The notes beneath the pieces are model-generated. The model searched no databases, had not been told where the DNA came from, and was given only the letters and a program-made list of their open reading frames with translations. The translations under genes and the position numbers were made by a program. From Sulfurovum sp. (GTDB lineage Bacteria > Campylobacterota > Campylobacteria > Campylobacterales > Sulfurovaceae), in NCBI GenBank assembly GCA_027012955.1, contig JALUYL010000075.1:1-39339 (forward strand): DNA of 39,339 nt, written 5' to 3'. This document shows, piece after piece, positions 3,505 to 31,828 of the stretch (position 1 is the stretch's first letter; each line of letters starts with the position of its first letter).

Positions 3505-4095
3505 ATGGCAATAGAAGATAAAACGCGTTGGGATGAAAAACATACACAAAATACTATGCCACAAGAGCCTATAGCCCTTGTCGAAAAATATGCACATTTG
3601 GCTACAGGTAAAAATGCACTGGACATCGCATGCGGCAATGGTAGACACAGCAAATATTTAGCCTCTCTTGGCTTTGAGATAGATGCGTTAGACATCTCCT
3701 CTGTCGCTATAGAGCAACTGCAAGGCTTAGAACACATCAACCCCATGGAAGTTGACTTCGATACCTATACGCTAGAAAAAAACAAGTATGACCTCATAGT
3801 ATGTACTTACTTTCTAGAACGTAAACTCTTTCCTCAGATGATAGAGGCACTCAAACCAAACGGCATTATACTTATGGAAACATTTTTACATGACGAAGGG
3901 AATGAGCGCACACCATCTAACCCTGCATTTAGACTCAATGAGGGTGAACTTGAAGCCTATTTTGACCACGAGATGGAAATATTGCATATACCAGAGTTTT
4001 GGGACACAGACTACCAAGGTTTCAAAACGATGAAAACCTCAATGGTAGCTAGAAAAAAGAGTGGTGGAATGACCGATGAGGACTTTTGGGCGTAA
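3505..4095 (+). CDS. class I SAM-dependent methyltransferase
   Basis: A 196-aa protein. The ATG at 3505 (MAIEDKTRWDEKH) is chosen over upstream in-frame starts, which lie antisense to xth. Motif I is ALDIACGNGRHSKYLASLG, followed by the acidic strand-2 residue in EIDALDIS, then DLIVCTYFLERKLFPQMIEALKPNG. This resembles the TehB/SAM-MT family of small-molecule methyltransferases. Substrate is not predictable. The gene is divergent from xth, with a 58-bp gap that must hold both promoters. A perfect hairpin lies just after its stop (4103-4131). Confidence 0.85.
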   Translation: MAIEDKTRWDEKHTQNTMPQEPIALVEKYAHLATGKNALDIACGNGRHSKYLASLGFEIDALDISSVAIEQLQGLEHINPMEVDFDTYTLEKNKYDLIVCTYFLERKLFPQMIEALKPNGIILMETFLHDEGNERTPSNPAFRLNEGELEAYFDHEMEILHIPEFWDTDYQGFKTMKTSMVARKKSGGMTDEDFWA

Positions 4096-4102
4096 GATTT
4101 TT

Positions 4103-4131
4103 CTCGTGACGACGTTTAACGTCGTCACGAG
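4103..4131. terminator. perfect 12-bp stem hairpin, probable terminator
   Basis: CTCGTGACGACG (4103-4114) and CGTCGTCACGAG (4120-4131) are perfectly complementary around a 5-nt TTTAA loop, 8 bp after the methyltransferase stop. There is no long T-run downstream on the + strand; a run of five Ts precedes it instead. It is a plausible terminator or a transcript-end-stabilising stem. Confidence 0.55.
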
Positions 4132-4158
4132 TTAATTATTTGTGGATTCTGAATGGGA

Positions 4159-4187
4159 TTTACATTTCATATGAATTATGTTATACT
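4159..4187 (+). promoter_or_regulatory. sigma70-type promoter of VapBC-like operon
   Basis: TTTACA (4159-4164), a 17-bp spacer and TATACT (4182-4187) precede the antitoxin start at 4223, which has an AAGGAG Shine-Dalgarno sequence at 4211-4216. Autorepression here by the TA complex would be typical of the family. Confidence 0.55.
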
Positions 4188-4222
4188 TTTTTACTTTACA
4201 AATAAAAATAAAGGAGTTTTAT

Positions 4223-4429
4223 ATGCATACTATCAAAATTGATATAAGTGATAATATTTACGATAATGTAATGTTTTTTCTTAATAATTTACCAAAAAAA
4301 GATATTAAACTTCATACTCAAAAAAAACTTACTGAAGAGAAACTCACAGACTTTTTTCACTCTTCCCCGCTACAAGATATTACACTAGAAAGAAACAAAG
4401 ATATTTATCAAGATAGAGTCAATTTTTGA
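4223..4429 (+). CDS. small antitoxin of VapBC-like pair
   Basis: A 68-aa protein starting at ATG 4223, which has AAGGAG seven bases upstream; an in-frame ATG at 4178 lies in the promoter and is rejected. The N-terminal HTIKIDISDNIYDNVMFFLN resembles short strand-helix antitoxins. The C-terminus (DFFHSSPLQDITLERNKD) has the SP-L pattern often seen in VapB tails that enter the PIN-domain active site. Its stop overlaps the toxin start by 4 bp. Assignment as antitoxin rests on size, order and coupling rather than on a clear domain. Confidence 0.75.
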   Translation: MHTIKIDISDNIYDNVMFFLNNLPKKDIKLHTQKKLTEEKLTDFFHSSPLQDITLERNKDIYQDRVNF

Positions 4430-4848
4430 AATATATCTTAGATACAAATATTATCTCTGAACTTATCAAGACAAATCCAAATCAAAAAGTATTACATTTT
4501 CTCAATACAATTCAAGAAAAAGATATTTATCTCTCATCTATTACTATTGGAGAAATATACTTTGGTATCCAAAAACTCCCTTATGGTAAAAAGCAAACAA
4601 AGCTTCTCTCTTGGGTTGAAGAGCAACTACTTCCAAGGTTTCACAATAAAGTGATAGTTATTGATACTGATGTAATGTTACAGTGGGCGATACTGACAAA
4701 CACATTAAAAACAAAAGGTACACCTTTGCCTATAATGGATTCTCTTATCGGTGCAACTTGTTTAGCTAAGAAATTTACACTTATCACGCGTAATGAAAAA
4801 GATTTTAAAAACATAAATATACAAATTATTAATCCATTTAATTCGTAA
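4426..4848 (+). CDS. vapC: VapC-type PIN-domain ribonuclease toxin
   Basis: A 140-aa PIN-domain protein read from TTG 4426, overlapping the antitoxin stop. Acidic metal-binding residues are in place: D6 in ILDTNIISEL, E43 in SITIGEIYFGI, D105 in MDSLIGATC, and the TRNEKDF motif at 121-127. VapC toxins cleave tRNAs or rRNA, and which target applies here is not visible. Length is normal. The gene converges with the DUF445 gene, 16 bp away. Confidence 0.92.
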   Translation: MKYILDTNIISELIKTNPNQKVLHFLNTIQEKDIYLSSITIGEIYFGIQKLPYGKKQTKLLSWVEEQLLPRFHNKVIVIDTDVMLQWAILTNTLKTKGTPLPIMDSLIGATCLAKKFTLITRNEKDFKNINIQIINPFNS

Positions 4849-4864
4849 TTGTTTACTCTGAAAG

Positions 4865-5569
4865 CTATAAAAAGTAAGAGGAAGCAAGCCCAATCAAGCC
4901 ACCAAACACACCACCCCAAACCACTAGCCACCCCAAATGCTCTTTGATAAGCTCTTGGACTAACTCTTTTACCATTTTAGGGGTAAGTTCCCCTAAGCGA
5001 TTGGTGATGAGTGCTTCGACAGAGTCTATCATGTCGTCTGAGAGAGCTGAGTTTTGTATGTGGTGATCAAGCTGTGCTTTAAATGCAGAAGATGAGACTA
5101 TGGAGCTTACTGCTGACTTTAGCTTACGTGCAAAAGGGTCACGCAAGCCCTCTAAAGCCTCTTCTCCCCCAAACATTTGTATGGCACCGCCAAATTTAGA
5201 CTCCATGACTGTCTTGGAGAGTGCATCAAAAGCAGGAGAAAAATCTGCACCTTCCACCAATGGTGCGAGATCTATCTTCTGCTCTTCTTTCGCAAAAAAG
5301 TTACCCAACTGCTCTTTGGTAAAAAACTGTTTCATTATCATCGTTCTGATAGATGCTTTAAAAGTCTCAAAATTCTTCTCAATCACCCCAGAACCATACA
5401 AAAACGGTACCTTTTCAAACAACATATGAATAGCAAGCTGATTGGTAATAGCTCCAGAGAGAGCAAAGAGCCCTGTAAAAAGAAGTGGGTTATGGTACTG
5501 CTCTGGTACGATGAATGAGATAGCGATAAGAAGAACGGAGATTAAATCTGTGATGAATGATTTAGACAT
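4865..5569 (-). CDS. DUF445-family membrane protein
   Basis: A 234-aa protein. N-terminal hydrophobic segments (residues ~8-45) contain the DUF445 signature GAITNQLAIHMLFEKVPFLYGSG. A central soluble helical region follows, and a C-terminal membrane helix (LGWLVVWGGVFGGLIGLASS) ends the protein. DUF445/YheB-like proteins are membrane proteins of unknown role. The start at 5569 overlaps the end of the HAD gene by 8 bp, so the two are co-transcribed and probably coupled. A Shine-Dalgarno sequence (AAGGAG) is visible inside the upstream gene. Confidence 0.85.
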   Translation of the reverse strand: MSKSFITDLISVLLIAISFIVPEQYHNPLLFTGLFALSGAITNQLAIHMLFEKVPFLYGSGVIEKNFETFKASIRTMIMKQFFTKEQLGNFFAKEEQKIDLAPLVEGADFSPAFDALSKTVMESKFGGAIQMFGGEEALEGLRDPFARKLKSAVSSIVSSSAFKAQLDHHIQNSALSDDMIDSVEALITNRLGELTPKMVKELVQELIKEHLGWLVVWGGVFGGLIGLASSYFL

Positions 5570-6191
5570 GAAGTAGTATCTCCTTCAACGCATCTACTGA
5601 CTGTACCACCTCTTTCTCTCCATGCTCAGTAAAGCCCCAGTCAACCATGATGTAGTCCATTTTAGCCTCTTTTGCTGCCATTTCGTCGCGTGGACCATCT
5701 CCGATGAAGATGGACTTATCTTCTGTCATATCAAGTTCATCTAGGATTTTATAGAGCATATCTGGGTGGGGTTTTCCTTGAGATACATCATCATAGCAAG
5801 CGATGGCATCAAATAGTTCATATACTTTTAAATGTGTGAGTGACTCAATGGTTGAGCCTCTGTAGGCATTGGTAGCTACTGCCAGTTTTTTGCCTTGAGC
5901 TTTAAGTGTTTCTAACAGTTCCTTGATACCTTTATAGAGTACCAGTTCTGTTTCGTGATTTTTGGTGTAGTACTCGGAAAACCATCTTTCATGGTCTGCA
6001 TCGAAAGCTTTGGCATGGTAAAAAGTTTGGGCGGGGTTAATGGTAGGGTCATTTACCAAACGTAAGATACTCTCTTCATCCATCGGCTCAAAGCCCAAGT
6101 TTTTACGTACATAGTTAATGGCATTGGCTATGGTGATAGAACTGTTGACCAGTGTACCATCCATATCGAAGATGATGAGCTTTTTTTCCAT
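5562..6191 (-). CDS. HAD-superfamily phosphatase (phosphoglycolate phosphatase-like)
   Basis: A 209-aa HAD hydrolase of the Gph/PGMB type. Motif I FDMDGTLVNS carries the nucleophile Asp and acid Asp near residues 9 and 11. A helical cap follows, then motif II (VATNAYRGST), Lys motif III (GKPHPDMLYKIL) and motif IV (FIGDGPRDEMAAKEAKM). This family removes phosphate from small sugars such as 2-phosphoglycolate; the exact substrate is inference. It is the middle of a three-gene reverse-strand run (PDC sensor, HAD, DUF445) with 3 bp and -8 bp gaps. Confidence 0.85.
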   Translation of the reverse strand: MEKKLIIFDMDGTLVNSSITIANAINYVRKNLGFEPMDEESILRLVNDPTINPAQTFYHAKAFDADHERWFSEYYTKNHETELVLYKGIKELLETLKAQGKKLAVATNAYRGSTIESLTHLKVYELFDAIACYDDVSQGKPHPDMLYKILDELDMTEDKSIFIGDGPRDEMAAKEAKMDYIMVDWGFTEHGEKEVVQSVDALKEILLHV

Positions 6192-6194
6192 AGG

Positions 6195-7109
6195 TTATTT
6201 TTTACTCTTACTTGACGGACGGTTAAACCTGATATAGACAGATAGACTCACTAATAAAAAAGAAACACCCGTAATAAGATACACGGCATACTCAAGCTTA
6301 GCAGGGTCAGTCAATGCAAACTTGAAGACAAGCATAAGTGCTTCTATAGAAAGGGCGATAATGATGGAGCCTAAGAAACGTATCATCGTTTGGTGTCCTT
6401 CACCTGCTCCATTCTTCTTTTCTTTTCCTAAAACTTCTTCTTCAAAAATGGCTTTCACCAAATCAAAAATAGCTAAAGAGAGTGTCAATAGGATGGTTGC
6501 TTTAAACATTTCGTTGATGTCTATCGCCATTAAGTCAATACCAAAATGCATAAAAGAGATAATACCTTTAATAAACAGAAGTAATGACACCGCTGCTAAC
6601 GCGATGGAAAATGATGTGTATGCCACTTTGCTCAATGCTCCTGCAAAAGAATCAACAGAAGATGGGTGTACCATACGCAAGATATTGGCAAGTGAGATAT
6701 CGACACAGATAATACACAGAAGATTGTCCTCTTCATCATATATAGGGAAAGAGGATGTTACTACCATCGTATTACTCACATACGATGGGTATGGGTCAGT
6801 CAAGGTACAACGATGGTCTTTGATGGTTTTATAGTAATAGGCTCTGTCACTTCTATCTTCGCCTTTTCCTATGCCCGCCAACCTTTTATTTTTAGAAATA
6901 TTATCTACGATTTGTACACCATTGCTGTCTAAAGCATAAACAGCTTCTGCTTTAGCGATGCTATCATTTAAACCATCGAGCTTAGCAAGTACGGTAGTGA
7001 TATCCCCCGTTTTAATCGTTTGGGAGATATTTCTTCCCATGATATAGCAAAGATACGCTCTTGCTTTTACCCGTATTTGGGCATATTCTTTTATTTCTTG
7101 TATTTGCAT
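6195..7109 (-). CDS. PDC-sensor membrane protein without output domain
   Basis: A 304-aa protein. Residues ~1-150 are a PDC/Cache-type sensor: VYALDSNGVQIVDNIS, then DRAYYYKTIKDHRCTLTDPY and MVVTSSFPIYDEEDNLLCIICVDISL are the typical strand motifs. About four membrane helices follow (residues ~165-185, 200-220, 245-265 and 275-295). No HAMP, kinase, GGDEF or chemotaxis domain follows. The sensor precedes the first membrane helix and no signal peptide is obvious, so its side of the membrane is uncertain. Shine-Dalgarno AAGGAG is seven bases before the ATG. It heads the HAD-DUF445 operon. Confidence 0.75.
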   Translation of the reverse strand: MQIQEIKEYAQIRVKARAYLCYIMGRNISQTIKTGDITTVLAKLDGLNDSIAKAEAVYALDSNGVQIVDNISKNKRLAGIGKGEDRSDRAYYYKTIKDHRCTLTDPYPSYVSNTMVVTSSFPIYDEEDNLLCIICVDISLANILRMVHPSSVDSFAGALSKVAYTSFSIALAAVSLLLFIKGIISFMHFGIDLMAIDINEMFKATILLTLSLAIFDLVKAIFEEEVLGKEKKNGAGEGHQTMIRFLGSIIIALSIEALMLVFKFALTDPAKLEYAVYLITGVSFLLVSLSVYIRFNRPSSKSKK

Positions 7110-7140
7110 GATTTCTCCTTAATTATTTATATTTATTATA

Positions 7141-7956
7141 CTATTTAATCTTGCCTAAAACATCTGCAAATGAAACTTTTTGGTTAATAGCGACTTCAGG
7201 GAAGATACTCCCTTTTTTTGAAAAAGTTAAAATGGTAGACCCCATCTCAAACCAACCGAACATCTCTCCACGTTCTAGCCATAAATCTTCATACTCATAA
7301 TGTCTTGGTTCTCTTATCTCTGAATTTGTTTGGACATTGGGTTCAAAAGTAACTATCATCTTTCCGACATTAAGCGCACCGACTAGCACTAAAACCTGAC
7401 ATCTCCCCTTTTTGTCTTTACACTCTAAAATCACACGTTCATTTTCTATAAACAAATCTTTTTTGTTACGCAACAAAGGAAAGTTCACAGGGTAAAGCTT
7501 CCCTGGTATGTGTGTTAGGGAAAGTACTTGTAAATCCATCGGCATATGGTAACGGTGATAATCTTTAGGTGAGAGGTAAAAGTTGATAAACTCACCACCC
7601 TCTACTTTTGCTACAGCATCTTTATGATGTTCCCCAAAAAGATTTTCAATGTTATAGCTCATACCTTTTATCTGGTAGGCTTTGCCATCGGTGATGGTAC
7701 CTGCATCGGTGATGAGTGCATCCACACCTGAAAGTAGTTTACTTTTACCCTCAGGTATGACTCTTGGTACTTCAAAAGCCCTTGTAAAAAGTTTGTTCAG
7801 CGTTTTGTAGCTACTTGGTTCTCTAAACTCTGACATATCAAGTCCCATGAGTTTTACATAGCTTGCATTGATAATATGTTGAATGATAGAGGGGAATTCT
7901 TTAGAAGCAAATTTGCCAAAACCTGAAGAGAGTATAGATGTAAAATGTTTAGACAT
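7141..7956 (-). CDS. psd: phosphatidylserine decarboxylase
   Basis: A 271-aa pyruvoyl enzyme converting phosphatidylserine to phosphatidylethanolamine at the inner membrane. The proenzyme self-cleavage site is G239-S240 in FEMGSTILTF, where the Ser becomes the pyruvoyl group. The conserved SGVDALITDAGTI segment carries the triad Asp, and FYLSPKDYHRYHMPMD has the His motif. Length fits the short bacterial type. The start has AGGAAAG upstream. It is divergent from the exonuclease gene at 8037. Confidence 0.93.
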   Translation of the reverse strand: MSKHFTSILSSGFGKFASKEFPSIIQHIINASYVKLMGLDMSEFREPSSYKTLNKLFTRAFEVPRVIPEGKSKLLSGVDALITDAGTITDGKAYQIKGMSYNIENLFGEHHKDAVAKVEGGEFINFYLSPKDYHRYHMPMDLQVLSLTHIPGKLYPVNFPLLRNKKDLFIENERVILECKDKKGRCQVLVLVGALNVGKMIVTFEPNVQTNSEIREPRHYEYEDLWLERGEMFGWFEMGSTILTFSKKGSIFPEVAINQKVSFADVLGKIK

Positions 7957-8036
7957 AGGCTTTCCTGAGTTAAAATAGTTTGTATTATATCAAAAATAGG
8001 ATATTATCTTTTTAATTTATTACAGGAGTGAAGCAT

Positions 8037-8777
8037 ATGGCGAAATATATATTATTTGATACAGAAACCACAGGTGCTGGAGAAAAAGACCGCATTATAC
8101 AAGTAGGTGCTATGATAGTGCATGGCAGAGATGAGATAGAAGTGTATGATGAACTCTGTTTGGCTGACGTACCCATAACCATCGAAGCGATGGAAGTGCA
8201 TAACATCACGCCCGATGTTATAGAAAACCAGCCACCCTACGCAGAGCTAAACTTCAGCAAAAAACTCCTTGAGTTTAATCAGCCAGAGAACTACCTTATA
8301 GCCCATAATATCTCTTTTGATTTGAGCATGGTAGAAAAAGAGGGATTTGAAAACCACTATACCCTCATCGACACCCTACGCTGTGCGAAACACCTCCTAC
8401 CTGACAGTCCTTCACATAGATTACAGTACTTGCGTTATGCTTTAGAGCTTTACAAAACAGAGGGAGCAGAAGCAGCCACATTAGGCATTACCATCAAGGC
8501 ACATGATGCTATCGGTGATGTTTTGGTTATGAAGCTGTTACTCTCAGAACTGGTAAAACGTACACAAGCGAAGTTCCAAGGGGAAAACCCTATGAAAAAA
8601 CTGGAAGAACTCACCCAAACACCAGTACTCATAAAAACATTTAAATTTGGAAAATACAAAGACAGAGAGATAGCAGAGATAGTTAAAGCAGACAGTGGCT
8701 ACATCAACTGGATGAAAAACAATATGGATTTAGATGAAGATATGCGCTTTACTTTAGAGCATTACCTTGCTATGTGA
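8037..8777 (+). CDS. DnaQ-like 3'-5' exonuclease with C-terminal DUF3820-like domain
   Basis: A 246-aa protein from ATG 8037, which has AGGAGTG just upstream; a GTG three codons earlier overlaps that ribosome site. The N-terminal DEDDh exonuclease has FDTETTGAG (motif I), LIAHNISFDLSMVEKEG (motif II) and IKAHDAIGDVLVM (motif III, H-x4-D). The C-terminal ~50 residues, FKFGKYKDREIAEIV and YINWMKNNMDLDED, match the DUF3820-type tail found fused to such exonucleases. It is likely a repair or nucleic-acid-processing enzyme rather than the replicative proofreading subunit. It converges with the CZB gene. Confidence 0.85.
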   Translation: MAKYILFDTETTGAGEKDRIIQVGAMIVHGRDEIEVYDELCLADVPITIEAMEVHNITPDVIENQPPYAELNFSKKLLEFNQPENYLIAHNISFDLSMVEKEGFENHYTLIDTLRCAKHLLPDSPSHRLQYLRYALELYKTEGAEAATLGITIKAHDAIGDVLVMKLLLSELVKRTQAKFQGENPMKKLEELTQTPVLIKTFKFGKYKDREIAEIVKADSGYINWMKNNMDLDEDMRFTLEHYLAM

Positions 8778-17241: not shown

Positions 17242-18093
17242 ATGACTACTATTTTTGACACCATCAAAGCCGTTGCTTTTGAGATAGACAATGCCATCAA
17301 AACTTCAGACTTAGGGTACTCAGACTCTGAAAACTCTTCAGGCGAAGACCAACTCAAACTAGATGTTCTCTCAGACATTATCATAGAAAAAGCGTTTGCT
17401 TCTGTTGCTGTGGTAAAAAACCTGGTAAGTGAAGAAAAAGAAGGTGTGTTAGAACTCAATAAAGGTGGGAAATATACTATCTGTTATGACCCACTTGATG
17501 GTTCTTCTCTTGTAGATGTAAACCTCTCTGTAGGTTCTATTTTTGGTATCTACGAGGGTGAGCTTAAAGCCCAAAACCTTGTAGCATCTGCATATGTTGT
17601 CTATGGACCTCGTATTGAACTTATGATTGCAAGCAAAGGGGAAGCACCTATGCTTTCACGTGTGATGGGTGGTGAGTTTAAAGAGATAGGTTCTGTGACT
17701 ATGGGCGAAAAAGGGAAACTCAATGCACCAGGAGGCACACAGCAAAACTGGTGTGACTACCACAAAACATTTATAGATGACCTTTTTGCAGAGGGTTACA
17801 GATTGCGTTACTCTGGTGGTATGGTACCTGACTTACATCAAATCATGCTAAAAGGTGGAGGACTCTTCTCTTACCCTGGGACTTCAGACAAGCCACACGG
17901 AAAACTCAGACAACTTTTTGAAGTAATCCCCTTTGCATTTATGTACGAACAAGCAGGCGGACAAGCCATCAACAACAAAGGCATGAGACTTATGGAACTT
18001 GTTCCTTCTCACCCACATGACACAAGCCCATGTTTCTTTGGCTCTAACTACGAAGTAGAAGCCCTTAAAAAAGCATATGGTATCAAAAACTAA
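17242..18093 (+). CDS. fbp: class 1 fructose-1,6-bisphosphatase
   Basis: A 283-aa enzyme of gluconeogenesis and the Calvin or pentose cycles, releasing phosphate from fructose-1,6-bisphosphate. Metal-site motifs are seen: SDIIIEKAF near the N-terminus and [24 protein letters not shown] (DPLDGSS). Later come [20 protein letters not shown] and [15 protein letters not shown]. It is shorter than the plant enzyme and typical of Campylobacterota. It has a strong ribosome site and sits between mobB and a 65-aa gene whose ATG overlaps its stop (TAATG). Confidence 0.94.
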
Positions 18094-18290
18094 TGTCTGA
18101 ACAAGTCCTAGATGAATGGCAAATCGCCCTCACCCATAAAAAAGCAGCACTTGAAGCATGTCAAGATGAGCAACAAGTAAGCAGCTGTCTTAAGTGTGAG
18201 AAGCTTCTAGAGTGTGAAATAAGAGATGCCTACATCAAAGCTGTCTATGACTCTATGAGTAAAGGTGCAGGCGGAGGGTTTGAGTTTTAA
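18093..18290 (+). CDS. small cysteine-containing protein after fbp
   Basis: A 65-aa protein. A C-x2-C-x5-C pattern (SCLKCEKLLECEIRDAYIKAV) is followed by a glycine-rich tail (GAGGGFEF). The pattern suggests a metal or disulfide site and is seen in short Campylobacterota proteins of unknown role. It overlaps fbp by 1 bp (TAATG), so it is translated with it. No partner is indicated by the sequence. Confidence 0.75.
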   Translation: MSEQVLDEWQIALTHKKAALEACQDEQQVSSCLKCEKLLECEIRDAYIKAVYDSMSKGAGGGFEF

Positions 18291-18296
18291 CCCTTT

Positions 18297-18665
18297 TTAT
18301 TTGGTGTTATCAAACTGATATACAACACCCTCTTCATACTCTTTTACAAGCTTTCCAAAACATTCTGCTATCTCTTTCATGGTATCTATATTAGGTTCTA
18401 TATATATTTTATTTTTACTTTTAGTCATGGTAATAATCTGTGCATCTTTGAGTTCTTTAAGATGACGAGATATAGTAGGTAGCGCAAAATCAAAATGTTC
18501 TGCGATGCTTGTCACACACGTAGCCTGCGCGATAATATCGTCTTTAGGTTGTGTATTATCAATAGAACAGGCATACCCACCCGTAAAAATGTTTTTAAAT
18601 ATTTTAAATCTCGTGTCATTTCCCAATGCTTTAAAAATCTTAGTTTTATCGTCCATATCTAACAT
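18297..18665 (-). CDS. ArsR-family regulator (copy 1)
   Basis: A 122-aa winged-helix repressor of the ArsR/SmtB type. It contains KALGNDTRFKIF, then HTH helices ATCVTSIAEHFDFALPTISRHLKEL, and a wing (MTKSKNKIYIEPN). Three cysteines, C33 (GGYACSID), C50 (ATCV) and C102 (ECF), are at equivalent positions in the second copy at 21113, so a three-Cys thiolate sensor for As(III) or other soft metals is likely. It is transcribed from a reverse promoter (18696-18725), divergently from the MerT-rhodanese operon it probably represses. A ribosome site (AAGGG) precedes the ATG at 18665. Confidence 0.9.
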   Translation of the reverse strand: MLDMDDKTKIFKALGNDTRFKIFKNIFTGGYACSIDNTQPKDDIIAQATCVTSIAEHFDFALPTISRHLKELKDAQIITMTKSKNKIYIEPNIDTMKEIAECFGKLVKEYEEGVVYQFDNTK

Positions 18666-18695
18666 TTATAACCCTTACAATTCTTCTTTAGATGT

Positions 18696-18725
18696 ATTAT
18701 ATCAGAAATAATATCTATTTAGCAA
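18696..18725 (-). promoter_or_regulatory. reverse promoter of arsR copy 1
   Basis: Read on the reverse strand: TTGCTA (18725-18720), an 18-bp spacer and TATAAT (18701-18696), about 31 bp upstream of the start codon. TTAG half-sites at 18719-18722 and 18727-18730 overlap the -35, so the regulator could repress its own gene. Confidence 0.5.
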
Positions 18726-18778
18726 TTTAGACAATTAACTTTTATTTAAGCCTTTGCTATGTAGCATATGCAATCAAT

Positions 18779-18794
18779 TTAGCTTATTAGCTAA
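18779..18794 (+). promoter_or_regulatory. putative ArsR operator upstream of MerT-rhodanese gene
   Basis: TTAGCTTATTAGCTAA is an inverted repeat of form TTAG-N8-CTAA, ending 18 bp before the start codon at 18813. The same TTAG-N8-CTAA form is found at 21537-21552 in front of the second forward gene of the island. A longer palindrome TTTAGCT-TATT-AGCTAAA covers it. Confidence 0.55.
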
Positions 18795-18812
18795 ACATAT
18801 TCAAGGAACTTA

Positions 18813-19733
18813 ATGTCTAATAAAAAAATATTCACTGTCATCGGTGCAACAGTAGCAGCATCGTTATGCTGTATCACTCCTGTGTTAGCAGTACTTGCAG
18901 GTTCAAGTACTCTCGCTTCTTCTTTCTCATGGTTGGCACCCTATCATAACTACTTGGTAGCATTTACAGTACTTGTTTTGCTCTATGCCTGGGTTGACAA
19001 ACTCAAACCATCTAAAGAGTTAGACTGTGCCTGTGATGAGAAAGGAAGCTTTTTTTCCAGTAAAACCTTTTTAGCTATCGTAACCCTCTTTTCTGTAGTG
19101 ATGCTTTCCTTTCCTCAATGGGGTAACAAAGTCTTTGACGCAGCACCTAGTGCAGAGAGTTGTAGTACTGGTACTTGTGAAAGTGAAGCAAGCCCAACGA
19201 AAAAGGTAAAAACGACACAAGATAAACCTTTTAAAAATACTCTAGAGACCCTAGAAGGAGATGCACCAACCAATGAACAGGCACTTATAGTTTGGGAATA
19301 TATGCATACCGAAAAAACACATCCAACACCATATAAACAAGTCGCATGTAGTGGTACAGGGCTTGAAAAACTAGACATGGCTATAGCAAAAAAAAGAAAG
19401 GTTATCGAAGAGATGCCTCCACCTGTACTGAAAAAATTATTGGATGAGGAAGAAGAGGTGATACTTCTTGATGTACGTGAACCAAGTCATAAAAATGGTC
19501 AAGTCATTGATGCTTTTGAAAGTCACTCTATGACATACGGAAAAGTATTATTTAACGCTTTAAAAGTCATGCAAGATGAAGATGCCGTTATCGTTGTATA
19601 CAGTAAGTTAGGACTTATCAGTCTTTTTGCTGCAGCGACTTTAAAGGATTTGGGCTATAAAAATGTATATCACTTAAAAGGTGGATTGAAAGCATGGGAA
19701 CTTGCAGGATATCCAACCATAGAAGAGGAATAA
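18813..19733 (+). CDS. MerT-like membrane protein fused to degenerate rhodanese domain
   Basis: A 306-aa fusion. The N-terminal part has three membrane helices (residues ~6-38, 45-61, 86-104) with the MerT-type C19-C20 pair in the first helix (ASLCCITP) and a second pair C72/C74 in the loop after the second helix, the positions used for Hg(II) handling in MerT. A linker with CSTGTC follows. The last ~105 residues are rhodanese-like (VILLDVREPSHK, HLKGGLKAWELAG), but the active-site loop reads YSKLGLIS instead of C-x-x-G-x-R-S, so the catalytic Cys is Ser. It could bind but not transfer sulfane sulfur by the usual route. It has an AAGGAA ribosome site and leads directly (3-bp gap) into the methyltransferase gene. 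Confidence 0.85.
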   Translation: MSNKKIFTVIGATVAASLCCITPVLAVLAGSSTLASSFSWLAPYHNYLVAFTVLVLLYAWVDKLKPSKELDCACDEKGSFFSSKTFLAIVTLFSVVMLSFPQWGNKVFDAAPSAESCSTGTCESEASPTKKVKTTQDKPFKNTLETLEGDAPTNEQALIVWEYMHTEKTHPTPYKQVACSGTGLEKLDMAIAKKRKVIEEMPPPVLKKLLDEEEEVILLDVREPSHKNGQVIDAFESHSMTYGKVLFNALKVMQDEDAVIVVYSKLGLISLFAAATLKDLGYKNVYHLKGGLKAWELAGYPTIEEE

Positions 19734-19736
19734 TAC

Positions 19737-21116
19737 ATGGCAGACAATCAACAAATAATCAACCTCTATACAGAGTTGGCACAAAATCCAAATAAAGATT
19801 TTGGGTGGGAGAAGGGTTTGGAAAATGCAAAAGCGCATGGCTATAAACAGGCATGGATAGATGCGCTTCCCACAGAAGTATGGGAATACTGTGCTGCAGT
19901 GGGAAATCCATTTCAAAATGCGAACATTAAAGAAGGTGATACTGTCTTAGACCTTGGCTGTGGTGCAGGAGTCGATGTATTGGTCTCTCGCCTTCATGTA
20001 GGAGTATCGGGCAATGTAGTGGGTGTCGATATTACGCCCAAGATGGTTGAAAAAGCAAGGGAGCATGCAAAACTAGCAAGATTTGACAATGTACAAATCT
20101 TAGAAAGTGGTTTTGATGACATTGCTATAGAAGATGAAAGTGTTGATGTAGTTATCTCCAATGGTGCCATCAATCTTACATCCTGCAAAGAGAGTGTCTT
20201 TTCTGAAATCTATAGGGTACTTAAACCCGATGGCAAACTCTACTTTGCTGACATGATAGATATCTCCATAGATGATGGTGCTTGTTGTTCTGTAGAAAAA
20301 AGTGCCTGTTGCATAAAGGATAACAATACAGACAAAGATGTTGAGGAAGACTGGGCAAACTGTGTAGCAGGAACACTTCGTCAAAATGAACTCATAGAGA
20401 TCATAGAAAAAGCTGGCTTTGCAGATGTAGCCTGTACAGGATTCACGCACTACACAACTTCTGAGACAACACAAGGTGCTACATTTCATGCTAGTAAAAT
20501 ACCTGCAACACAAAGAAGAGAAAAACACTGGGACAGCATCTTTAAAACCAAAGACTATACCCAAGTTTTTTGGCACCAAAGCAGCCCATCACGTTCACTA
20601 AATCTCATACAAACTTATACAAAAAAAGAAGATGCTATCATAGATGTTGGGTGTGGTGCTTCTTTACTCATAGATGCATTACTGAATGAGGGCTACCAAG
20701 ATATAACACTCTTAGATACTTCACATACCTGTCTAGACATCGTCAAAGAGCGTCTTACATCTACTGTTACCCCAAGTTATATATGTTCTGACATACTTAC
20801 ATTTGAGACACATAAACTGTATACACTATGGCATGACAGGGCTGTATTTCATTTTTTATTGACAAAAAAAGAGCGAGAGCGTTATTTTAAAGTTTTAGAA
20901 GAAAGTTTAGTGGATGGAGGTTTCGCCATTATCAGTACTTTTGCACCCCACGGAGAACTAAGTTGTGCAGGACTAGAAACAAGAGCATATGATAAAGAGC
21001 GTATGTTAACAGAATTACCAGAAACTTTACAACTCGTAGCCTATGATAAATTTACACATATCACACCTAAAAATACAGCTCAAGCGTATAGTGTATTTGT
21101 AATGAAGAAGTGCTAA
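19737..21116 (+). CDS. double methyltransferase (ArsM-like plus second SAM-MTase)
   Basis: A 459-aa fusion of two class I methyltransferases. Domain 1 (~1-250) is ArsM/UbiE-like: EYCAAVGNPF, VLDLGCGAGVDVLVSRL, VVGVDITPKMVEKA, SNGAINLTSCKESVFSEIYRVLKPDG, and DWANCVAGTL with the Cys typical of arsenite methyltransferases. The ArsM Cys usually before VINL (SNCV) is Gly here, with a Cys a few residues later. A Cys-rich insert (GACCSVEKSACCIK) lies between. Domain 2 (~258-459) has EKHWDSIF, IDVGCGASLLIDALL, LWHDRAVFHFLL and TFAPHGELSCAGLETRAY. The substrate is probably a soft metalloid or thiol compound (inference). It converges with ArsR copy 2 with a 4-bp overlap. Confidence 0.85.
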   Translation: MADNQQIINLYTELAQNPNKDFGWEKGLENAKAHGYKQAWIDALPTEVWEYCAAVGNPFQNANIKEGDTVLDLGCGAGVDVLVSRLHVGVSGNVVGVDITPKMVEKAREHAKLARFDNVQILESGFDDIAIEDESVDVVISNGAINLTSCKESVFSEIYRVLKPDGKLYFADMIDISIDDGACCSVEKSACCIKDNNTDKDVEEDWANCVAGTLRQNELIEIIEKAGFADVACTGFTHYTTSETTQGATFHASKIPATQRREKHWDSIFKTKDYTQVFWHQSSPSRSLNLIQTYTKKEDAIIDVGCGASLLIDALLNEGYQDITLLDTSHTCLDIVKERLTSTVTPSYICSDILTFETHKLYTLWHDRAVFHFLLTKKERERYFKVLEESLVDGGFAIISTFAPHGELSCAGLETRAYDKERMLTELPETLQLVAYDKFTHITPKNTAQAYSVFVMKKC

Positions 21117-21487
21117 CTCATGGCTACATCACCAAAAAAGAGTTCACGATTTTCCTCAAAATTTTCTACCAATGTTGTAAAACATCCACCTAATTCACGT
21201 ACAGTCTCGATGTTTGGTTCTATGTAAATTTTATTGCCTTTCTTTTCCATCGTGACGATATTTGCTTCTCTTAATTCTTTTAGATGTTTAGAGATAGTAG
21301 GCAAAGAAAATTCAAAGTGTTCAGCTATGGTACTCACACATGTAGCATGAGGACTTACTTTTACTTTAGGGTCTTTTTTATCTATGGAGCATGTATACCC
21401 TCCAGTAAATACATTTTTAAAAATAAGAAATCTTGTTTCATTCCCTAATGCTTTAAAAATTTTAATCTTTTGATGCATATTTAACAT
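21113..21487 (-). CDS. ArsR-family regulator (copy 2)
   Basis: A 124-aa ArsR paralogue of the copy at 18297, starting at ATG 21487 (MLNMHQKIK), which has AAGGA just upstream and aligns with copy 1 (MLDMDDKTK). A start at 21502 would add five residues over the ribosome site. The cysteines in YTCSID, ATCV and GCF match copy 1. Conserved blocks include KIFKALGNETRFLIF, AEHFEFSLPTISKHLKEL and NKIYIEPN. It is divergent from the secreted rhodanese at 21573, repeating the regulator/target arrangement of copy 1, and probably arose by duplication. Confidence 0.9.
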   Translation of the reverse strand: MLNMHQKIKIFKALGNETRFLIFKNVFTGGYTCSIDKKDPKVKVSPHATCVSTIAEHFEFSLPTISKHLKELREANIVTMEKKGNKIYIEPNIETVRELGGCFTTLVENFEENRELFFGDVAMS

Positions 21488-21495
21488 TCTTTTCC

Positions 21496-21522
21496 TTGAC
21501 ATTTCATTTTAATTATTATACC
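21496..21522 (+). promoter_or_regulatory. possible promoter of secreted rhodanese gene
   Basis: TTGACA at 21496-21501 is an exact -35 box. The best -10 match is TATACC (21517-21522) with a short 15-bp spacer, and CATACT at 21522-21527 with 20 bp is an alternative. Neither spacing is ideal, which is common in repressed or activated promoters. Confidence 0.4.
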
Positions 21523-21536
21523 ATACTATAAAGTAT

Positions 21537-21552
21537 TTAGTTAAATGCCTAA
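21537..21552 (+). promoter_or_regulatory. putative ArsR operator upstream of secreted rhodanese
   Basis: TTAGTTAAATGCCTAA has the same TTAG-N8-CTAA form as the site at 18779-18794 and ends 20 bp before the start codon at 21573, nearly the same distance as there (18 bp). The base before TTAG is T in both. Confidence 0.5.
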
Positions 21553-21572
21553 TTTGTTAATAAGGAAATAAA

Positions 21573-22496
21573 ATGAAGCGTCTCATCAAAGTAATCAGCA
21601 TCGTAGCATTATCATCTAGCCTGCTTTTAGCACTAGAGGTACCCAACGACCATATAGCAAGTACAAAGTGGCTCCATAGTCATTTGGATGATGCACACCT
21701 TGTGATAGTAGATACCAGAGAGAACAAAGCATACCTAAAAGGTCACATACCAGGTGCGGTCAATATACCAAAGAAAATGTACTTTCAAGGTACATTGGGT
21801 TCTGTAAAGAAACTTCCTACTACCCCAGAACAACTTCAGAAAATGTACCAAGCTGTAGGCATAGACGATGAAAGTGCCATTGTTTTTTACAGTGGGGGTA
21901 AAAACGCTGTAGATTTTGCAGATGCTGCAAGTGGTGTGTGGAATAGCTGGATTTATGGTCTTCAAAATGTTGCACTGCTAAACGGTGGGTATGCAAAGTG
22001 GATAGATGAGAAGAAGAAAACATCTACTAATACTCCAACAAATAAAGCAAGTGAACTAGAACTAGAAACATACGACATACATGAAGTAGCTTCCATTAAT
22101 GATATTTTTGCTGCTATGTATGATGAGGACAAACAAATAGCAGATGCAAGAGTAAGTAAATTTTATAGAGGTGAAGACAAGAAAAAAGCACTTGCAAGAC
22201 ATGGACGCATTCCTACTGCAAAATTAACACCAATGATACGTTATGTTAAAAAAGAGGGTAACTACTTTGTATTTTTAGATAAAAAAGAGGCGAAGTCTAT
22301 TTTATATAATAACGGCTTTGGTGTTGAGTTAGATAAGCCTATCTATTTTTATTGTAACTCTGGGCATAAAACAAGAGGCATTTGGTTTGTAGCCAAATTT
22401 TTAATAGGCGTAAAAGATGCCAAAGTATATGATGGAGGAATGATAGAATATTCACGTTCCAATATGCCTATGGGTACAGGCGAACCTATGGATTAA
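21573..22496 (+). CDS. secreted tandem rhodanese (sulfurtransferase)
   Basis: A 307-aa protein with a signal peptide (MKRLIKVISIVALSSSLLLALE) so it acts in the periplasm. It has two rhodanese domains. The N-terminal one (~22-165: VIVDTRENKAYLKGHIPGAV, LLNGGYAKW) has Ser in the active loop (FYSGGKN) and is structural, as usual in tandem rhodaneses. The C-terminal one ends IYFYCNSGHKTRGIW with the catalytic Cys, then VYDGGMIEYSR. The loop CNSGHK differs from CRKGVT (thiosulfate) and CGSGVT (mercaptopyruvate) types, so the sulfur donor is open. It belongs to the ArsR island by its operator and gene order. Its stop overlaps the GIY-YIG gene end by 4 bp. Confidence 0.88.
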   Translation: MKRLIKVISIVALSSSLLLALEVPNDHIASTKWLHSHLDDAHLVIVDTRENKAYLKGHIPGAVNIPKKMYFQGTLGSVKKLPTTPEQLQKMYQAVGIDDESAIVFYSGGKNAVDFADAASGVWNSWIYGLQNVALLNGGYAKWIDEKKKTSTNTPTNKASELELETYDIHEVASINDIFAAMYDEDKQIADARVSKFYRGEDKKKALARHGRIPTAKLTPMIRYVKKEGNYFVFLDKKEAKSILYNNGFGVELDKPIYFYCNSGHKTRGIWFVAKFLIGVKDAKVYDGGMIEYSRSNMPMGTGEPMD

Positions 22497-22738
22497 GCAC
22501 CAATAAGTTTAAGCTTTTGTGTACGACTCATCTTCTTTTTTATCTCATATTCCCGTTTAGAAGCTGTGCTTCTGTCGGGGTACTCTTCACTGTAAACAAG
22601 TTTTACGGGGCGTCTTACACGGGTGTATTTGGCACCTTTGTCTGAGTTGTTATGTTCTTCTACTCTGCGTTCTAGCTCTGTGGCTATGCCCGTGTAGAGC
22701 GTGTCATCTGCACATTGAACGATGTAAACATAGTACAT
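22493..22738 (-). CDS. GIY-YIG nuclease superfamily protein
   Basis: An 81-aa protein with the GIY-YIG motif as YYVYIVQCADDTLYTGIATEL, then R-x3-HN (ERRVEEHNN), PVKLVYSEEY and the acidic motif in STASKREYEIKKKMSR. It is the YhbQ/UPF0213 size class, small DNA-processing or repair-linked proteins. It is coupled to the gene at 22738 (start codon overlaps its stop, TAATG). Confidence 0.93.
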   Translation of the reverse strand: MYYVYIVQCADDTLYTGIATELERRVEEHNNSDKGAKYTRVRRPVKLVYSEEYPDRSTASKREYEIKKKMSRTQKLKLIGA

Positions 22739-29122: not shown

Positions 29123-31828
29123 TCATACTTTCACATCTGCCACATATTCTTCATACAACTCAAACAAAAACTCTATGCGTTCTTTGTCGCTTTTAAATGT
29201 CCGTTTGGTGTAGCATTTGTCTACTGCACGGTCTAGCTCTTGGTGGGCTTTTTTGAGTTTGGGTGGCATGGCTAGTGGGTCGTAGAGGTCAGCTAATGAG
29301 CTGTCTGTAAACTCTGCTCTGATGTCCAGTATGTTTTGGGCTTTTTCTTCTACTGTAGTTTTGTTTTTATCACTTACATCTTTTGGGAATGGGTAATTAT
29401 TGTACACCAAATCTTTGGAGTATCTGTAGTCACTTTTTAGCCGTCCACAAGTATATTTTACCCAAGTCATGTGCATAAGTGATGTTAATTGTCCGAAGAG
29501 GAATAAGTCTCCATTTGGGATTGCTTGACAGGTATCTCCTACAATAAAATCTTTTATAAAAAACCCCATAGGAATATATTCTCTATTTGAGGATGTAGTT
29601 CTAGGCACTAAAATAAAATCACTATTCGGCTGTGTTACTTGTCTAAATAGTGTATGATATGGATATTCTCTTGTAGATTTTGCTTTACTTTTTAATCGAA
29701 ATTGTTTAACTTCTTCAACCCTTTTAAGTATCTCTGGAGACATTTTTAAATCATTTGGATTTGCATCTACAAGCCAAATTACCCATCTATTAATACTTTT
29801 TAAAAACTCTCTTCCACTTAAAAATGGTTTTATAAATTTTTTTGCATTTGGGTCTTTATCAATTAATATATCTTTCTCTGTGTCATCCAAAAGAAAGAAA
29901 CCTCCATCTGTTGGCTTACTTCCATATTTCATTGCAGAAACATTGCATAAAGGTTTACTTCTATTAGTCACAACAATATCATCTGCTTCCACTAAATATG
30001 GATTTATATTTCTTACATTTCTTTCATGGGCTTCTTTCTTTATATCTTCATATTCATATATCTTTTTATTATCTGTATCATAGTTTGCAAATCCAACTAT
30101 AACTACATGTACAGCTGCATTTGACTTGGCTTCATTACTCCAGTTAAATGTTTGATGTGCAAAGTGTATTTTTATTTTATACTTTTCTAACAACTTACTC
30201 CATAATATCCCAACTTGCTCTCCTTGAGCTATAGAATTTGTAGAAACAAATGCGACTTTTATTTTGGTATCTTGTATATATGCCGATGCTTTGTAAAACC
30301 AAGCAGAAACATAATCCATAACACCTGATGCTTTAATATCATACAAAATAGTATTTAGTTCTTCTTTTTGTTTTGTTGTTTGCAAATGATGCCCTATAAA
30401 TGGAGGATTACCCAAGATATAAGAGAGTCTATCATTAGCGACTACTTCTTTCCAATCAACTTCCAAAGAGTTCGCATTGACAATATTGGCAGACTTTTTT
30501 AGAGGTAGCCTAGCGTAGTACTGTCCGAAGTGTTCGCTTATACGCATGTTCATTTGGTGGTCTATGAGCCACATGGCGACTTGTGCTATCTGTGCAGGGA
30601 ATTCGTCTACTTCTATGCCGTAAAACTGGTCTACATCTACCCACACGATGGTAGAGACATCCAGTACACTAGCACTGTGCAATACTTTGAGTATCTCTAA
30701 CTCTAACAAACGTAACTCACGATACGCGATGATGAGAAAGTTCCCAGACCCACAAGCAGGGTCTAAAAAGTGCAAGGTCGCTAACTCTTTTTGAAACTCT
30801 TGGAGTTTCTTTTTGTTCTTTTTTAGTTTCTCAAATCTAGCATGAAGTTCATCTAAAAACAATGGCTTGATGACTTTAAGAATGTTAGCTTCACTCGTAT
30901 AGTGAGCTCCCAAGTTTCGTCTAGCCTTTTTGTCCATGATAGACTGAAAAAGTGAACCAAATATGGCAGGGCTTATCTTGCTCCAGTCAAGGTAGCAACA
31001 CTCTATGAGTACCCCTCTCATCTTAGTGTCAAAGGCAGGTATGGGCAAAAACTCTTCAAAAAGCTTACCATTAGTGTAGATAAAGTCGTTTAGACTTTCA
31101 TCTCTTGTGCTGAGTCTTTTGTCTTCAGGCGTGTTAAGCACTTGAAAAAGCTCTGTAAGTTTGGCACCCACATCTGAGCCGTCTTCGTTAGTCTTTGCTT
31201 CAAGATACTCCACAAAAGAATTCTTTTCAAATATAGCGGTATCCTCGGCAAACATCAAGAAGAGTAAGCGTACCAAGAAAAGCTCCAAAGGGTGTCCGTC
31301 ATAGCCAGTCACTTTAAGCTCATCATGTAGTTTACCCAGTAGTTCTGCTGCTTTGATGTTAACAGGGTCTTCTTCGCGTACCTTATGTGTGGTGTACCCT
31401 GCCATGAAGCCAAAAAGTTTGATATACTTAGAAAATTCTTTTATATGAAACTGTGTATGACCACCCTCCTCTAAGTCATACAGTCTAAATATCTCAAAAT
31501 CAGATACCAAGATGTACTTAGGAAGTTCACGGTCTTTGATGCCAGGGAAGTAGTCTTTTGCTTGTTGAAATGCTTTGTCTAAGTCCTTACCCCTAGACTT
31601 ATGCTCTACGAGTATGACACCTTTCCAAAGTAAGTCGATGCTACCCTTTTTGTCTCCGAGTTTCGCCACAGGCTTTTCAAAAGTAGCCACACGTCTACGA
31701 GAGATACCAAAGACATCGAAAAAGTCATTCCAAAAAGACTGAGACTCTGCATTCTCCCGACTTTCATCTTCCCACTCTTTTGTAAAAGTTATTGCTCTGC
31801 TTCTTATCTCGTTCCAACTTAGTGCCAT
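29123..31828 (-). CDS. MmeI-type (type IIL) restriction-modification enzyme
   Basis: A 901-aa single polypeptide with nuclease, methyltransferase and target-recognition parts, close to MmeI (919 aa). The N-terminal nuclease has D65-x9-E75-H-K77 (IDLLWKGVILVEHKSRG), the same D-x9-E-x-K spacing as MmeI. An alpha-helical linker follows to ~residue 330. The gamma-class N6-adenine methyltransferase shows motif I (LHFLDPACGSGNFLIIAY) and motif IV (YILGNPPFIG). Target recognition is C-terminal (~600-830: VSAMKYGSKPTDGGFFLL and RWVIWLVDANPNDLK), as in this family. It would protect and cut DNA in one protein. A 9-bp inverted repeat lies upstream at 31848-31883. Confidence 0.9.
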   Translation of the reverse strand: MALSWNEIRSRAITFTKEWEDESRENAESQSFWNDFFDVFGISRRRVATFEKPVAKLGDKKGSIDLLWKGVILVEHKSRGKDLDKAFQQAKDYFPGIKDRELPKYILVSDFEIFRLYDLEEGGHTQFHIKEFSKYIKLFGFMAGYTTHKVREEDPVNIKAAELLGKLHDELKVTGYDGHPLELFLVRLLFLMFAEDTAIFEKNSFVEYLEAKTNEDGSDVGAKLTELFQVLNTPEDKRLSTRDESLNDFIYTNGKLFEEFLPIPAFDTKMRGVLIECCYLDWSKISPAIFGSLFQSIMDKKARRNLGAHYTSEANILKVIKPLFLDELHARFEKLKKNKKKLQEFQKELATLHFLDPACGSGNFLIIAYRELRLLELEILKVLHSASVLDVSTIVWVDVDQFYGIEVDEFPAQIAQVAMWLIDHQMNMRISEHFGQYYARLPLKKSANIVNANSLEVDWKEVVANDRLSYILGNPPFIGHHLQTTKQKEELNTILYDIKASGVMDYVSAWFYKASAYIQDTKIKVAFVSTNSIAQGEQVGILWSKLLEKYKIKIHFAHQTFNWSNEAKSNAAVHVVIVGFANYDTDNKKIYEYEDIKKEAHERNVRNINPYLVEADDIVVTNRSKPLCNVSAMKYGSKPTDGGFFLLDDTEKDILIDKDPNAKKFIKPFLSGREFLKSINRWVIWLVDANPNDLKMSPEILKRVEEVKQFRLKSKAKSTREYPYHTLFRQVTQPNSDFILVPRTTSSNREYIPMGFFIKDFIVGDTCQAIPNGDLFLFGQLTSLMHMTWVKYTCGRLKSDYRYSKDLVYNNYPFPKDVSDKNKTTVEEKAQNILDIRAEFTDSSLADLYDPLAMPPKLKKAHQELDRAVDKCYTKRTFKSDKERIEFLFELYEEYVADVKV

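Follow-up and report, generated by a model that had tools for sequence, protein, structure and literature searches.

A conserved ArsR-controlled module of Campylobacterota pairs a MerT-rhodanese fusion with a double methyltransferase and looks like an undescribed variant of arsenic detoxification

Why should a MerT membrane domain, rhodaneses and a double methyltransferase stand together under two ArsR-type repressors? The question is raised by the Sulfurovum sp. contig JALUYL010000075.1 (assembly GCA_027012955.1; 39,339 nucleotides, hereafter called the window), part of a genome of 1.7 Mb that is 76% complete. An original prediction, made from the sequence alone, had described five genes at 18297-22496 as one ArsR-controlled unit acting on metalloids or reactive sulfur and unlike canonical ars or mer operons. 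We found the five open reading frames (ORFs) exactly at these coordinates, and family searches bore out the names they had been given:

18297..18665, minus strand: ArsR1, an ArsR/SmtB-type repressor of 122 amino acids (aa) with three invariant cysteines, C33, C50 and C102
18813..19733, plus strand: MerT-rhodanese, 306 aa, a MerT domain (CC in the first transmembrane segment, CxC in a loop, further Cys) and a rhodanese domain
19737..21116, plus strand: the double methyltransferase (dMT), 459 aa, an ArsM-like half (~1-255) fused to a second class I methyltransferase (~260-459)
21113..21502, minus strand: ArsR2, 129 aa, a paralogue of ArsR1 (~65% identical) with the same three cysteines
21573..22496, plus strand: tandem rhodanese, 307 aa, of the 3-mercaptopyruvate sulfurtransferase type, predicted to be exported (signal peptide judged by eye)

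ArsR1 and MerT-rhodanese are divergent across an intergenic gap of 147 bp, dMT starts 3 bp downstream of MerT-rhodanese, and ArsR2 converges on dMT with a 4-bp overlap while diverging from the tandem rhodanese. Searches in 150 relatives, together with neighbourhood maps, identified the recurrent unit as ArsR1 facing MerT-rhodanese and dMT. This three-gene module was found across Sulfurovum, Sulfurimonas and Sulfuricurvum (ArsR1 orthologues beside the same operon are 83-93% identical), and its flanking genes vary between genomes; an order that recurs in many genomes with different flanks is not the product of chance. The prediction had proposed looking for the same arrangement in relatives: the three genes and a conserved operator were indeed found there, and the full set of five was seen only in the window and in one close relative (G021, locus L047). 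Rather than one unit, the locus is a three-gene module beside a separable two-gene module, ArsR2 facing the tandem rhodanese. In a further relative (G067), read from two contigs with a break inside dMT, MobB-FBP lies upstream and DUF-MetG downstream as they do in the window, and ArsR2 and the tandem rhodanese are absent. The adjacency of the two modules could be accidental.

The three-gene module is real and conserved, an uncharacterised variation on gene sets that respond to arsenic or thiophiles, and stands out by its fused methyltransferase and its unusual fusion of MerT. By placing a soft-metal membrane domain together with sulfur transfer and methylation under ArsR control it does, as predicted, depart from canonical ars and mer operons, and it appears to be a so far undescribed form of bacterial arsenic detoxification that is tied into sulfur chemistry. 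As to function, we infer, at a probability of about one half, that sulfur-oxidising Campylobacterota use it as an inducible means of handling arsenic, probably in sulfur- or thiol-bound form.

Control by ArsR1 was examined in the intergenic DNA, where the following sites were recorded:

18778..18795, unstranded: predicted palindromic operator TTTAGCTTATTAGCTAAA, upstream of MerT-rhodanese and perfect in the window
18718..18739, unstranded: ArsR1-proximal conserved box TTTAGCAATTTAGACAATTAAC, a possible second operator, recognised by eye in almost every ArsR1 intergenic region
~21536..21555, unstranded: degenerate related site TTTAGTTAAATGCCTAA between ArsR2 and the tandem rhodanese, recurring in other ArsR2 intergenic regions

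The site at 18778-18795 is the sole exact match to the pattern TTTAGCNNATNAGCTAAA genome-wide, and TTTAGC-N6-GCTAAA with at most one mismatch was present in nearly every ArsR1 intergenic region (20 of 21) versus 1.9% of shuffled regions. This conserved palindrome supports ArsR1 as the local repressor of the operon; in ArsR2 intergenic regions, the TTTAGC/GCTAAA palindrome did not rise above shuffles. Both regulators match HTH_5 (E-values of 1.7e-6 for ArsR1 and 6.9e-8 for ArsR2) and pass the PF01022 gathering score (28.2 and 32.7 bits, respectively, against a cut-off of 22). The cysteines C33, C50 and C102 are invariant in our ArsR alignment (A3; 17 sequences), with one Cys in the helix-turn-helix region. 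A gammaproteobacterial ArsR directly adjoining a canonical arsM is 35% identical to ArsR1, a resemblance that speaks for arsenic. A structure search with ArsR1 alone and with its profile returned nothing informative among solved structures, Lmo1102 matching weakly.

We then used dMT as the anchor for comparing neighbourhoods and tabulated 36 distinct dMT loci, several of them cut by contig ends. Near neighbours included a rhodanese at 26 loci, MerT-rhodanese or DsbD at 23, and ArsR1/ArsR2 at no fewer than 23, the last being a lower bound since the gene finder took an antisense ORF over ArsR1 in two genomes (G057 and G023). Conserved dMT peptides, scanned against ~85,000 species representatives, matched 29 loci in Campylobacterota plus one canonical ArsM of a gammaproteobacterium. 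Full-length fused dMT was present in 11 of 397 sampled genomes of the phylum, which fall into three genera, one in the window's family and two in a single other family, and no plasmid record contained the fused dMT. The fusion is thus likely, rather than proven, to be restricted to Campylobacterota, because a peptide-pattern scan can miss distant fusions.

A link to arsenic emerged from two Sulfuricurvum loci (L138 and L141, ~3900-8335), in which dMT directly follows ArsB (612 bits; cut-off 457) at a distance of ~50 bp. ArsC, a canonical ArsR and a SaoE-like permease lie alongside, which places dMT in a canonical ars operon. Across all loci, a canonical ars-type near neighbour (ArsB, ArsC, canonical ArsR, SaoE-like permease or canonical ArsM) was found at 6 of 36. 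ArsB was encoded in every dMT genome (17 of 17) versus 80 of the 133 others (Fisher p 6.6e-4, relatedness ignored). The earlier statement that no merA, arsB or arsC accompanies the genes is correct for the window and fails for the genome; it is not supported as a clue to function, and in Sulfuricurvum dMT itself sits in an ars operon. Another contig of the same genome (C99; L055, 3832-8850) carries canonical mer (ArsR-MerTP-MerA) and ars (ArsR, probable ArsC, ArsB) operons back to back, the ArsC being read by eye from position and size. Like canonical ars operons (arsR-arsC-arsB), the cassette has ArsR-type control and a soft-metalloid theme, and in two relatives its dMT follows arsB; unlike them, it has no efflux pump or arsenate reductase and carries sulfur-transfer genes instead.

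The N-terminal half of dMT matched ArsM-type models (E-values down to 3.3e-56) and is followed by the second class I methyltransferase. Its best solved relatives, both by sequence and by model comparison, are CrArsM and CmArsM: VIA-align gave Z 23.1 for CrArsM (205 residues, 34% identity) and Z 22.7 for CmArsM, above other methyltransferases, using a dMT model with a disordered loop at 180-211. The half thus resembles ArsM/AS3MT in fold and sequence (30-34% identity over ~205 residues), and the equivalent of CmArsM C224 (C209) is the only one of CmArsM's three arsenic-binding cysteines retained (28/28 full-length dMT).

As for the second half, its family is widespread as standalone proteins and is recognised by a WHDRA motif and an invariant Cys in xC(S/A)GL. 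A fold search singled out no function for this half, many class I methyltransferases scoring Z 19-21. Of 13 annotated plasmid stretches with standalone relatives, 11 have them close to metal or sulfur genes, a count without a baseline on plasmids that are rich in metal genes; their neighbours include P-type ATPases, ChrA, copper RND parts, DsbD/CcdA and rhodanese. On the Sphingomonas plasmid pA46BH3 (L158, 3131-7742), a second-half relative stands near MerT, a GDCCVxC protein, DsrE, a multicopper oxidase, ArsR and YeeE. A standalone second-half methyltransferase, 50-53% identical, was also found in G303 (L191, 5878-6741) and three other genomes of the genus g69, outside an ArsR context in the one locus examined, and is a possible source of the fusion.

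The MerT-rhodanese protein matched both Rhodanese (1.9e-11) and MerTP_fusion (2.3e-38, at residues 12-112). The MerTP model NF033556 scored 131.7 bits against a cut-off of 180 and covered residues 12-112 only; a rhodanese follows in place of MerP/HMA. The MerT part is ~62% identical to the MerTP encoded on contig C99, with the Cys pairs retained, and the CC and CxC pairs are invariant in 11 MerT-rhodanese proteins. Thus the membrane domain and its two cysteine pairs are those of MerT/MerTP, whereas the rhodanese, the lack of a MerA partner and an exchange with DsbD in relatives set the protein apart. This exchange was seen at four loci (L052, L118, L122 and L131), where a rhodanese, DsrE and a DsbD-thioredoxin protein occupy the position of MerT-rhodanese; at three others (L126, L140 and L144), all three stand alongside it. 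Because rhodanese, DsrE and DsbD can replace MerT-rhodanese in relatives, its MerT domain is probably a membrane thiol or soft-metalloid relay, not a means of mercury uptake for reduction by MerA. At the position of the active-site Cys, its rhodanese domain has Ser264 in the window protein, and relatives have S, T, D or C. Catalysis by this domain appears doubtful from such variation, and its conserved role may be binding instead. In G021, a break in the orthologue (L047, 6643-8153) separates the MerT part from two rhodanese domains, of which one has Ser and the other Cys in its active-site loop; this suggests an ancestral MerT-rhodanese with two rhodaneses. The AF2 model of MerT-rhodanese (mean pLDDT 62, transmembrane region mostly <57) was not used.

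The tandem rhodanese, in turn, matched its family at 1.7e-26 and NF008557 at E 1.1e-24, below the cut-off of that model, and its second domain has an intact YCNSGHKTRG loop with the catalytic Cys conserved. Genes for rhodanese, DsrE, DUF302, tandem rhodanese or DsbD lie opposite ArsR2 and its relatives, whether or not dMT is near, and the ArsR2-tandem rhodanese pair belongs to a related sulfur-relay module. The Sulfuricurvum kujiense plasmid pSULKU02 (L147, 2242-6378), from a cultured strain, carries an ArsR2-type regulator facing DsrE-rhodanese-DsrE-DsbD-DUF255, with no methyltransferase.

How might these parts handle arsenic? In the scheme we propose, whose ArsR1 ligand, dMT substrate and products, and direction of transport we infer, ArsR1 would repress the two-gene operon through the palindromic operator until a thiophilic ligand, bound by its three cysteines, releases it. 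MerT-rhodanese could serve as a thiol relay of the inner membrane, where it would present or move a soft metalloid (or its sulfur); in relatives, rhodanese, DsrE and DsbD would take this role. The ArsM-like half of dMT would methylate the bound metalloid, probably on a rearranged cysteine set (C52, C192 and C209), and the second half may provide further methylation or methylate a thiol co-product. A related sulfur-relay arm would consist of ArsR2 and the exported tandem rhodanese. A more specific version, offered tentatively and rather unlikely, is a dedicated thioarsenical pathway in which MerT is a DsbD-interchangeable relay of thiols or sulfane sulfur that feeds dMT (C52/C192/C209) for two successive methylations on one polypeptide.

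Several observations weigh against arsenic handling. The classical CVC metal motif of helix 3 is absent from the ArsR proteins, all members having TCV followed by T or S. In 28/28 full-length dMT sequences, CmArsM C72 is replaced by an invariant V55 and C174 by an invariant G143, and CmArsM mutants C174A and C224A have been reported inactive on arsenite and methylarsenite (PMC3877260). The window dMT reaches 170.9 bits with the arsenite methyltransferase model NF008823, against a cut-off of 263 that none of the 150 relatives exceeded. Moreover, most dMT copies lie outside ars operons and are most often accompanied by genes of sulfur transfer. Judged by sequence, dMT is not a canonical ArsM, from which it differs in the replaced C72 and C174 equivalents, in its extra invariant cysteines, in its fusion to a second methyltransferase and in falling under the NCBIfam cut-off. 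C52 and C192 are invariant among the 28 sequences, and C183 nearly so; standing in place of the lost cysteines, C52 and C192 suggest, as a hypothesis, a rearranged thiolate site.

The serious rival is a defence against reactive sulfur, in which ArsR1 and ArsR2 would sense persulfide or polysulfide, the rhodanese, DsrE, DsbD and MerT proteins would move sulfane sulfur, and dMT would methylate sulfide or thiols to volatile products. We regard this as possible and somewhat unlikely. Sulfur-relay genes (rhodanese at 26/36 loci; DsrE, DUF302, DsbD and thioredoxin) are indeed the commonest partners of dMT, the same type of ArsR faces such genes without a methyltransferase on the S. kujiense plasmid, the host bacteria are sulfur oxidisers, and ArsR repressors that sense sulfane sulfur are known (PMC12423496). 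In having an ArsR-type repressor over rhodanese, DsrE and related sulfur-transfer genes, the cassette also resembles the SqrR, BigR, SoxR and sHdrR regulons; it differs from them in the three invariant cysteines of its ArsRs, one of these in the helix-turn-helix region, and in having a methyltransferase as main target. However, ArsR1 and ArsR2 fall far under the BigR model (15.6 and 20.5 bits against a cut-off of 155), and dMT is closest to ArsM and occurs in canonical ars operons; nor is the rhodanese Cys of MerT-rhodanese conserved. Between a metalloid and reactive sulfur, the gene context favours arsenic, and the two explanations merge if the substrate is sulfur-bound arsenic.

Detoxification of selenium or tellurium (or antimony), with thiol and sulfurtransferase proteins reducing selenite or tellurite and dMT methylating the product, appears improbable. 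Rhodanese and DsrE-type proteins are able to carry selenium, and the Tso three-selenoprotein operon of NCBIfam (TsoA, TsoB, TsoR) likewise combines an ArsR-type regulator with a rhodanese/DsbD fusion and other parts, and we detected weak similarity to TsoR and TsoB. Yet no member reached a Tso or ExtH cut-off (TsoR, 24.7 and 37.2 bits against 115; TsoB, at most 162 against 805), no selenite or tellurite genes were seen nearby, and dMT has its context in ars operons. Mercury is less probable still: import of Hg(II) by MerT-rhodanese for detoxification or methylation would suit the close match to the genome's own MerTP and the retained Cys pairs, but in a MerA search of the 150 relatives only one of the 17 dMT genomes, that of the window, had MerA over its curated cut-off, and there on another contig; a rhodanese stands where MerP would be, DsbD takes the place of MerT in relatives, and methylation of Hg(II) from S-adenosylmethionine by a dMT-like enzyme is no established route. 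An accidental neighbourhood without joint function, which the rarity of the five-gene set might suggest, is highly unlikely and is contradicted for the three-gene module by its recurrence with different flanks and a conserved operator.

A search of the literature at hand found no paper joining rhodanese, arsenite methyltransferase, MerT and ArsR, and text searches of the S8 transcriptome paper on Sulfurovum indicum for ArsR, methyltransferase and MerT gave nothing. Arsenic often occurs bound to sulfur in the sulfidic vents, sediments and aquifers that Sulfurovum, Sulfurimonas and Sulfuricurvum commonly inhabit. Through a cassette that is conserved and inducible and couples sulfur transfer to an ArsM-like enzyme, the way these bacteria deal with arsenic would become accessible to genetics, and a MerT domain would be seen at work outside mercury resistance. 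It would also warn against taking every ArsM-like match in genomes of this kind for an arsenite methyltransferase. The cassette can be tested directly, through its operator, its cysteine set and the exchange of MerT with DsbD.

Elsewhere in the window, Rfam and tRNA scans returned no matches, and a 901-aa ORF at 29123-31828 had zero NCBIfam matches at 1e-10. Two small ORFs border the five genes. One, at 18093-18290 between fructose-1,6-bisphosphatase and ArsR1, encodes 65 aa with a CLKC motif and no family match; the other, at 22493-22738 between the tandem rhodanese and a conserved DUF gene, resembles a GIY-YIG endonuclease by eye and is missing from G067 along with ArsR2 and the tandem rhodanese.

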